The notes beneath the pieces were generated by a model. That model saw only the letters and a list, made by a program, of their open reading frames with translations. It was not told where the DNA came from and made no database searches. A stretch of 64,000 nt of DNA from assembly GCA_003226295.1 (NCBI GenBank), contig CP029803.1, positions 1,989,001 through 2,053,000 on the forward strand, in the 5' to 3' direction. The first letter of the stretch is position 1; each line of letters starts with the position of its first letter. Positions 57,902 through 61,524 of this stretch are shown here, piece after piece. This stretch comes from Candidatus Moanabacter tarae. Its GTDB lineage: Bacteria > Verrucomicrobiota > Verrucomicrobiia > Opitutales > UBA2987. The position numbers were made by a program, and so were the translations under genes.

Positions 57902-60670
57902 ATGGAAGAACCACTATATCGCCAAATTCTTGGACATGCAGAACACTGGCTATCTTTTGATCTCGGGACCAATCGAGAAAAGGTTCTTAACGGATGCCGT
58001 GAATATCTTCGTCTGGGAAACGATATGATCTACCGCTATCACTGTATGGCGGACAACGGAACTCAAGTCACTTTGGCCCGATCCTATGTCATCGATATTC
58101 TCATTGAGAACCTGTTTCGCTACTCCACAAAGATCTACAAGAGAAAACACGGGCCTCCTCCCTGTCCCGTCAGCGTCGTCGCACTTGGCGGCTACGGAAG
58201 AGCAGAACTAAGCCCCCTTAGTGATATTGATATTATGTTCCTCCTACCCGACAATGTTGTGGCAGGGGGTATCCAAAGAATACAGGAGATACTCTCAGAA
58301 AATCTCCTTCTCATTTTATGGGATCTCAAGCTTAAGGTAGGACCATCGACTCGGACTCTTTCGCATACTTTTGAGGACGCTGAAAAAGATATTGAAACTA
58401 AGACCGCTTTGCTCGAGTCCCGACTCATTACAGGCCAAAAAAAACTCTTCAAACAATTTATTAGGCAGTACAAGAGATTCTACCGCAGAGCTAACCCAGA
58501 GGCATACATCCAAGCCCGTCTCGACGATCAGTACACTCGGCGAAAGAAGCATCAGAATACGGTCTTCCTCCAGGAACCCGACATCAAGAATGGGGTAGGC
58601 GGACTCCGAGACTATCAAAACATCCTCTGGATGGCCGAGATTAAGCTGGGAATCGACAGTATGGGAAAACTACACCATCGAAGGTATCTCAGTAAATCCG
58701 AGCACCGGGCTTACACCGCTGGGTACGAGTTCCTACTTCGGGTTCGCAACGAACTTCACTTCCAAAGCACCAGACCAACCGATCTATTGAATCTGGAAAA
58801 ACAACCCAACATAGCCAAAAAGCTGGGCTACAAGCAAAAAAGTGTTTTCAAGAGGGTCGAAGCATTCATGCGAGATTATTACAAGCATGCTAAAGAAATC
58901 TTCCGTATAACCCAAATCCTGGAAGGCCGACTTTTCCCCGAGAGACAAATCACCGCAAACCGGCTAATCAATAGTAGCCTTTCTGAACCCCGAAAGCGAA
59001 GAGTCTTTGACGGATTTGTTCTGAGACGAAATATTCTCACTCACCTCAATTTGTCAGTCTTTAAAGAGGATCCAGAACGCCTCATCCGCGTCTTTAGACA
59101 CTGTCAACAGCTTGATGCAACACTTGATTTCTCTCTTAGCTCTCTAATTACCGAGTCGCTCCCTCTGATCACCAGTTCGGTCATCCATTCGCCTACCGCT
59201 AACCGTAGTTTTAGGGGAATTCTCCAAACTGTGGGCGAAGTCTACCCCACATTGGCAAAAATGCATGAACTGGGAGTTCTAGAAAGATTTTTACCTGAGT
59301 TTTCAGATCTCACCTGTCTTGTTCAACACGAATATTACCACCGTTACACTGCTGACGAGCATACTCTAAATACAATTCATCAACTCGACAGGATCTTCAG
59401 CGGTGCATCGCAATATTCACCTGTCTACGTCCATGCAATTCACCAGACCAAGAACCCAAGCATCCTATATCTCATCCTCCTACTTCATGATATCGGGAAA
59501 GGGAAAATGATCTCGGGGCATGCTAAGATTGGAGCCGGTATGGCACGAGCCATTCTCGCCCGTCTGCAGATAGCACCAGATATAATGGAAAGAATTATTT
59601 TTCTAATTAGCAATCACCTGGAAATGTGGCGCTTCTGGCAACGCTATGACATTGAGGACCCAGAAACAGGAGCGGCTTTCGCCAATTTTGTGAAAGATGA
59701 AGAAAATCTGCGCCTTCTATTTGTTCATACATACTGTGACTCACAGGGCACCCATTCGGATCTATGGAATAGCTACAAAGACGGTCTTCATCGAGGGCTT
59801 TTCCATATTACCCTCGATCACTTTAGGGGAACGGCATCCAAGGGTGTCGAGGAAGAGAGCCAAGAATCGGTCTCTTACTCCTGCATTAGAGAAGCCGCTC
59901 CTCACATTTCGGAGGAAGAAATTATAGCTCACTTTAATCAACTAACAGCAAGTTATTTTGTCGACAGCGGGGTCGAAGAGATTTCTTTCCATCTCGATAT
60001 GGTCCATCGTTTCCTTCGTCGCGTAAGGCAAGAGGAGTCTCCAAACACTCTGGTCCCAATCGTGGATTGGCGGGACGATCTCAATCTAAGTATGACTGTC
60101 GTTAACATCGCAACTTGGGATAGGCCCGGCCTGTTTTACAGATTGGCCGGCGCCTTTAGTGTTGCAGGAGTAAATATACTCAGCAGCAGGGCAATATCAC
60201 GAATGGATTCGATTACCATTGATTCTTTCTACATTTGTGACCCCGGTGGAGGTTGTGTCCAGGACCAGCAAGCAAAAGATAAATTTCAGACCAACCTCAT
60301 CAGCGCGCTCAAATACGATAAAGATCTATTACCTGTTATTTTAGAACAGGCCAGGAAAGCTGAAAACCCACCTTTTCTGAAATTTGACGAACGTCTCAAC
60401 GCGCCCATTCCCCACAGAGTCGATAGCCACAAGGATAAACGTTTAAACCGGATCATTGTCGAAATCCAAGCTACCGACCAAATTGGTCTGCTCTATCGCG
60501 TAGCCAAAGCCATCTACGACCACGGATTTAATATCGAGTTCGCCCGAATTTCTACTGAACTCGATGTCGCTGTCGATACTTTCCACATTACCAATATCAA
60601 TACCCTAAAAAAAGACAATTCCGGAGATTTAAGGAACCTTGAAGCAAACCTTAACAACCTCGTTTCCTAA
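57902..60670 (+). CDS. glnD: [Protein-PII] uridylyltransferase/uridylyl-removing enzyme
   Basis: A 922-residue bifunctional nitrogen sensor that uridylylates and deuridylylates PII proteins. Domains in order: nucleotidyltransferase with ALGGYGRAELSPLSDIDIMF (GG at 96-97, metal Asp108 and Asp110), a helical region, an HD phosphohydrolase domain with LLLHDIGKGKMISGHAKIG near 530, and two C-terminal ACT domains (DRPGLFYRLAGAFSVAGVNI and DQIGLLYRVAKAIYDHGFNI) that bind glutamine. No glnB or amt is in the window. Its stop codon lies inside a perfect 60-bp palindrome. Confidence 0.95.
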   Translation: MEEPLYRQILGHAEHWLSFDLGTNREKVLNGCREYLRLGNDMIYRYHCMADNGTQVTLARSYVIDILIENLFRYSTKIYKRKHGPPPCPVSVVALGGYGRAELSPLSDIDIMFLLPDNVVAGGIQRIQEILSENLLLILWDLKLKVGPSTRTLSHTFEDAEKDIETKTALLESRLITGQKKLFKQFIRQYKRFYRRANPEAYIQARLDDQYTRRKKHQNTVFLQEPDIKNGVGGLRDYQNILWMAEIKLGIDSMGKLHHRRYLSKSEHRAYTAGYEFLLRVRNELHFQSTRPTDLLNLEKQPNIAKKLGYKQKSVFKRVEAFMRDYYKHAKEIFRITQILEGRLFPERQITANRLINSSLSEPRKRRVFDGFVLRRNILTHLNLSVFKEDPERLIRVFRHCQQLDATLDFSLSSLITESLPLITSSVIHSPTANRSFRGILQTVGEVYPTLAKMHELGVLERFLPEFSDLTCLVQHEYYHRYTADEHTLNTIHQLDRIFSGASQYSPVYVHAIHQTKNPSILYLILLLHDIGKGKMISGHAKIGAGMARAILARLQIAPDIMERIIFLISNHLEMWRFWQRYDIEDPETGAAFANFVKDEENLRLLFVHTYCDSQGTHSDLWNSYKDGLHRGLFHITLDHFRGTASKGVEEESQESVSYSCIREAAPHISEEEIIAHFNQLTASYFVDSGVEEISFHLDMVHRFLRRVRQEESPNTLVPIVDWRDDLNLSMTVVNIATWDRPGLFYRLAGAFSVAGVNILSSRAISRMDSITIDSFYICDPGGGCVQDQQAKDKFQTNLISALKYDKDLLPVILEQARKAENPPFLKFDERLNAPIPHRVDSHKDKRLNRIIVEIQATDQIGLLYRVAKAIYDHGFNIEFARISTELDVAVDTFHITNINTLKKDNSGDLRNLEANLNNLVS

Positions 60671-60713
60671 AAGCGGTACGCAATTGCGTACCGCTTTTAG
60701 GAAACGAGGTTGT
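60654..60713. terminator. Perfect 60-bp palindrome, probable bidirectional terminator
   Basis: Thirty bases on each side of the centre (60683/60684, inside CAATTG) pair without a mismatch and without a loop. The left arm begins in the last codons of glnD and contains its TAA; the right arm ends two bases before the HNH stop codon. The core is AAAAGCGGTACGC and its complement, giving an A-run and a T-run around a GC-rich stem on both strands, as in bidirectional intrinsic terminators. The perfect outer 15 base pairs exceed what termination needs, so an inverted duplication or an assembly fold-back must be considered. Confidence 0.8.
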
Positions 60714-60714
60714 C

Positions 60715-61053
60715 TCAACTGTAGGTTCGCGATCCGCTCGCAAAATGGGCCCAAGATTCGTCAATATCGGCGGCACCCAAAACAAAATTGATGAAGGGAC
60801 GGAATCGGGGACGAAAGGGTTTTCTGTGAAGTCGCATATCGGCTTCATCCGGCAACCGATTGCCCTTCTTCGAATTGCAGCCAATGCAAGAGGCTACCAC
60901 GTTCTCCCAGGTTGTCTTTCCACCCCGGTCTCGAGGAATGACATGGTCCAAATTACGCCTTCTATTAGTGAATACCTGACCACAATATTGACATGTATGG
61001 CGATCCCTTTCGAAGAGGTTATGACGAGTGAATTTTACCTCTTTCATAGGCAA
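60715..61053 (-). CDS. HNH endonuclease-family protein, N-terminally short
   Basis: A 112-residue HNH nuclease domain. Zinc Cys pairs CQYCG and CIGC and the core block NLDHVIPRDRGGKTTWENVV with the catalytic His are present. Such proteins are usually 170-190 residues with a leader containing an LVLNR block. Here the frame stays open from 61053 to a TGA at 61138-61140 (...ILFQNHGKVIYSEDGDFR) but has no ATG, GTG or TTG start there; the first possible start is a TTG at 61053. A LVLNR-like fragment appears in another frame near 61240-61270. The gene may be 5'-truncated or frameshifted. Confidence 0.7.
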   Translation of the reverse strand: MPMKEVKFTRHNLFERDRHTCQYCGQVFTNRRRNLDHVIPRDRGGKTTWENVVASCIGCNSKKGNRLPDEADMRLHRKPFRPRFRPFINFVLGAADIDESWAHFASGSRTYS

Positions 61054-61140
61054 CCGAAAGTCCCCGTCTTCGGAATAAATTACCTTGCCGTGATTCTGAA
61101 AAAGAATGGATCTCGAAAAGGGACAGTCAAGTTCGCTTCA

Positions 61141-61524
61141 AAAACCCTACGGGGCTGAATTCCCAGCCAGCACCTGAAGACGGAGAGATGAGAAAGCAAG
61201 AAACGAAATAGATCGTACCAACCTCTTGGACAAACTGAGGGGATCGGTTCAGAACAAGAAATCCAGAGCATTAGCAAATGGAAAATCCGAACCCAAAAAA
61301 CTACTTTATCTGTTCATAATGTGGAGGACGAACACAGGTTCGGGTTGCATCCTGTCACGAAAAATGATTCGAGGAAAACTAATGGATTAGTATAATCAAA
61401 CCGAATTGAAACAAAATTGGGGTATCAGCAAATATTTTGCACGATCCTTCTCGATATCCCACAGTTTCATCCTTTCATACTAAAACGAGACATTTCCCAG
61501 CGAAACTCCATGAATTAGCGCATC
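61141..61524. other. Gene-free stretch, possible decayed 5' end of the HNH gene
   Basis: Lies between the HNH gene (leftward) and cstA (rightward). On the minus strand a frame reads GFLVLNRSPQFVQEVG, similar to the LVLNR start of full-length HNH relatives, but in a different frame from the HNH domain. The cstA side carries A/T-rich promoter-like DNA. A three-codon ATG-AAT-TAG mini frame sits just before the cstA ATG. Confidence 0.3.

Follow-up and report, generated by a model that had tools for sequence, protein, structure and literature searches.

A perfect 60-bp palindrome at the convergent glnD–HNH junction of Candidatus Moanabacter tarae and its probable origin by inverted duplication

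The glnD–HNH junction

We analyzed a 64,000-nucleotide stretch of the Candidatus Moanabacter tarae genome (the window; contig CP029803.1, positions 1,989,001–2,053,000). Near its right end, glnD converges on an ORF for an HNH endonuclease, the two genes lying 44 bp apart (Table 1). A palindrome joins them. Its two arms match as reverse complements at all 30 positions and abut without a spacer, the center falling between CAA and TTG, confirming the perfect, loop-free 60-bp structure reported in a sequence-only reading of this DNA. The palindrome takes in the last 17 bases of glnD, whose stop codon TAA occupies 60668–60670, so the claim that it includes glnD coding bases also holds. The same reading had it filling the convergent gap, which is right but for one base: its right end stops one base short of the HNH stop codon.

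Table 1. Features at the glnD–HNH junction, in window coordinates
Feature	Position	Strand	Basis
glnD, PII uridylyltransferase; GlnD_UR_UTase, HD and ACT domains	57902–60670	+	Translation, domain matches
Perfect palindrome, 60 bp; two 30-bp arms, spacer 0	60654–60713	.	Arm comparison; single copy in genome
Left arm; first 17 bases are the final glnD codons and stop (N-N-L-V-S-stop); probable source copy	60654–60683	+	C-terminal alignment, 96 relatives
Terminator-like core, AAAA-GCGGTACGC-AATT-GCGTACCGC-TTTT, same on both strands	60669–60698	.	Sequence, fold
Right arm, non-coding; presumed derived inverted copy	60684–60713	+	Arm comparison; direction presumed
HNH endonuclease ORF; C-terminus preserved, most of the N-terminal region missing	60715–61053	-	Comparison with relatives

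The 60-bp sequence is single-copy in the 2,633,965-bp single-contig genome, and a sample of 372 other genomes of the order lacked it. The longest other perfect hairpin arm in the window measures 11 bp. Over 1.663 Mb of the genome (63%), the longest perfect arms were 30, 29, 20, 16 and 15 bp, whereas in five order-3 Markov nulls built from these stretches the mean was 0.2 arms at 13 bp and 0 at 14 bp or more. Because the nulls yield no perfect arm of at least 14 bp, a chance origin of the palindrome is excluded.

Several other identities were considered and set aside. Rfam matches were mostly to microRNA families, all far under their gathering scores, as with any long hairpin. A dispersed repeat is not indicated, the palindrome being single copy and near-matches to its core elsewhere being at background level. 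Phage records and viral contigs gave no match that would suggest a phage or viral origin. A duplication longer than 30 bp was also rejected: the flanks share only GAACCT, a similarity reached by chance in 848 of 2000 shuffles.

Folded as RNA, the palindrome gives 28 bp closed by an AAUU loop (-52.3 kcal/mol, z = -13.4). This hairpin would stand at the 3' ends of both the glnD and the HNH transcripts, and any read-through RNA would present RNase III with a good double-stranded substrate.

The HNH gene itself is only partly preserved. Comparison with relatives showed its C-terminus in place (ESWxxF plus a variable tail), with most of the N-terminal half gone. A short N-terminal fragment is left, then an in-frame loss of ~42 residues relative to one relative, and stop codons lie farther upstream of the fragment. 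This loss and the degraded upstream sequence map to 61040–61150 on the minus strand; the related proteins are roughly 200 aa.

Gene order and the source arm

The public loci of glnD relatives belong to MAGs and isolates of Opitutales-like Verrucomicrobiota. Besides this genome the family has only three, and since their glnD genes are only ~50% identical to this one, the junction is not comparable at the nucleotide level. Gene order could be compared. Several relatives have a GAF/HisKA/HATPase kinase gene after glnD, with the HNH gene next, on the opposite strand. Here the kinase ortholog instead lies at genome positions 2,542,162–2,543,850, about 0.49 Mb from the junction, between a serA-like (D-2-hydroxyacid dehydrogenase) gene and a glutamine-synthetase-like (glnA-like) gene, both named from their translations. 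The direct glnD–HNH junction is therefore derived. Taken together, the kinase relocation and the HNH N-terminal loss indicate that this locus has undergone both gene movement and decay.

No hairpin comparable to the palindrome was seen in the relatives, either 3' of glnD or beside the HNH stop. Both the hairpin and this glnD neighbor are thus missing from the relatives, which are too distant for nucleotide homology of the right arm to be traced. The sequence-only reading had proposed that an unrelated right arm in relatives would point to an artefact; that argument fails, because a lineage-specific duplication predicts the same.

The two arms differ in constraint. The left arm encodes the L-V-S end of GlnD. 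Among 96 relatives, most have I/V-I/V-S/T at the matching alignment positions, where the last ACT-domain helix ends. This conservation places the left arm under coding constraint and makes it the likely source. The right arm is then probably the derived copy. We also considered whether the core might descend from a longer ancestral glnD tail, such as that of the sister genus, and gave this up because protein alignment puts that tail elsewhere.

The terminator-like core

The inner 30 bases had been described as looking like a bidirectional intrinsic terminator. The symmetry behind that description is real: AAAA (60669–60672) and TTTT (60695–60698) flank a 9-bp GC-rich stem with an AATT loop. 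The core thus has the GC-rich stem, short loop and T-run of an intrinsic terminator, although the T-run is only four long. Its placement is uneven. The stem starts 2 nt past the glnD stop codon and 20 nt past that of HNH; in E. coli, a terminator that worked at about 90% efficiency fell below 10% once a stop codon was moved to 5 bp before it (PMC4824070). By this yardstick the stem would be too close to a ribosome at the glnD stop, and acceptably clear of one at the HNH stop. Judged from its sequence, the core could serve as an intrinsic terminator that is likely weak for glnD and plausible for HNH. The outer 15 bp of each arm add nothing to an intrinsic terminator.

We surveyed gene ends for similar structures, using a detector that required a perfect stem of at least 6 bp with at least 4 G-C pairs, a loop of 3–8 nt and 4 T in 5. 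Gene ends were those of ORFs of at least 110 aa, called by a simple program in 40 20-kb stretches plus the window, 33% of the genome. Only 1 of 656 gene ends was positive, that of the palindrome's core itself, and the control inside genes gave 0. Applied to a stretch of E. coli, the same detector scored 4 of 40, and in three relatives it scored 4 of 103, 2 of 112 and 3 of 106. Looser settings produced no clear enrichment in this genome (10 vs 8, 8 vs 9 and 12 vs 5 in the control). Canonical intrinsic terminators are almost absent from the sampled 33% of the genome; rho is present. In outline the core is a textbook bidirectional terminator, a likeness tempered by its isolation, its position at the glnD stop and the superfluous outer arms. 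Nor does the likeness need selection: when 5000 random 30-nt pieces of the genome were folded back on themselves, 955 (19%) passed the same detector.

Origin of the palindrome and other inverted repeats

Three origins had been offered from the sequence: a recent inverted duplication, a selected RNA structure, and an assembly or amplification fold-back. Inverted duplication is the best supported, by the conserved coding left arm set against a non-coding right arm, by relatives that lack both hairpin and neighbor, and by a genomic excess of inverted repeats, one of them nearly as large and set in a divergent gap (below). We consider the palindrome to be, more likely than not, a real and lineage-specific chromosomal inverted duplication that arose through template switching or fold-back priming. 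While the 3' end of glnD was being replicated or repaired, a DNA 3' end would have folded back near the short self-complementary GCAATTGC, used its own strand as template for about 30 nt, and then rejoined beside the 3' end of the HNH gene. GCAATTGC does lie at the palindrome center, as such a sequence does in every palindrome, so it does not discriminate. What does bear on the fold-back or template-switch step, which we infer, is that the reverse-complement copy is perfect and adjoins its source. The event would be placed on the lineage where the kinase gene moved off from between glnD and HNH, possibly as the same event; the two are perhaps linked, their one tie being the shared site.

All of the processes invoked are already known. 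Template switching creates perfect reverse-complement repeats or hairpins in one step (PMC8794818), and at quasipalindromes it is experimentally established in E. coli (PMC7202029). The palindrome resembles those quasipalindromes in being a perfect reverse-complement copy beside its source, explicable in one step for which a short inverted repeat suffices (PMC7202029, PMC8794818); it differs in having a longer tract than the 18-bp E. coli reporter, and its ancestral state is unobserved. In yeast, loss of the Mre11 nuclease, homologous to SbcD, raises fold-back inverted duplications at DNA breaks (PMC10622511). Like the palindrome, they put an inverted copy at a rearranged junction, around a short inverted repeat for which GCAATTGC would be the counterpart here, and SbcD (Mre11-type) was undetected in this genome, but the yeast events are chromosome-scale rearrangements, compared with 30 bp here, and their mechanism would apply to this bacterium by analogy. 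With one family model, sbcD gave no match in this genome or its family, nor in most of the order; being a one-model result common to most of the order, the absence explains nothing specific to the palindrome site.

A selected bidirectional intrinsic terminator serving glnD and HNH, its arms lengthened or kept perfect by template-switch correction, is possible, though we think it a good deal less probable. It would account for the symmetric AAAA/TTTT about a GC-rich stem with 4-nt loop, for convergent genes only 44 bp apart, and for a position at gene 3' ends, where bacterial inverted repeats concentrate (PMC13155455; PMC6060812). Known terminators of this class likewise lie between convergent genes with an A-run, GC stem and T-run on both strands. 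The palindrome departs from them in overlapping a stop codon and in pairing for about 15 bp past the core on each side, a length unneeded for termination, and it is isolated in a rho-bearing genome almost without such terminators, when E. coli had one in ten gene ends positive and the three relatives 2–4%. The position of the stem 2 nt past the glnD stop and the degraded look of the HNH gene also speak against selection. With inverted duplication, the terminator-like hairpin would be incidental, and its effect could be the stronger on the HNH strand.

Chimeras of a known kind carry perfect inverted joints, and an assembly or amplification fold-back would produce one. Such an artefact is unlikely here, as unique gene sequence flanks the palindrome on either side, the two stop codons are intact, the contig runs on normally as a single 2.63 Mb contig, and the inverted copy of a chimera would usually extend past 30 bp. 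Least probable of all, to the point of being hardly credible, is a site that acts at the DNA level, for example a protelomerase (hairpin telomere) target, a recombination site or a mobile-element end. The targets of protelomerases are likewise palindromes without a loop and of similar length, yet the genome has no match to a protelomerase family that could supply the cognate enzyme, and the palindrome is a single-copy sequence, unmatched in phage records and viral contigs, inside the chromosome between two host genes.

Under inverted duplication, the palindrome is a clean candidate for a terminator-like hairpin arising in one mutational step, as an inverted copy of a gene end, rather than through stepwise selection. 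Alone it is one site. If it were confirmed with congeners, it would tie short duplications of the fold-back type to a change of gene order, in a bacterium that apparently lacks SbcCD.

Perfect inverted repeats with arms of at least 13 bp totaled 17 in the 63% of the genome examined, against 0.2 expected. Several are within ORFs; this, with the excess, points to a general mutational source. We raise, as a doubtful but broader idea, that fold-back copying in this lineage, with its few intrinsic terminators and undetected SbcD, repeatedly makes whole intergenic gaps into perfect palindromes, creating terminators or promoters in one step. If so, a neighbor would acquire, in mirror image, the 3' end of a gene, as here, or a leader and start codon, as at genome position 992,586–992,647.

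The repeat at that second position has 29-bp perfect arms and a TGTG loop, and occupies an entire divergent gap, both start codons included, between enolase-superfamily-like and D-2-hydroxyacid-dehydrogenase-like genes. A perfect intergenic hairpin, its 20-bp arms separated by a 9-nt loop, was noted at genome position 1317019–1317067. In one relative (G022), two long hairpins (L188:19326–19370 and L188:9285–9329) have the arm end TCAGCGATTA in common, which suggests a dispersed palindromic repeat family in that genome.
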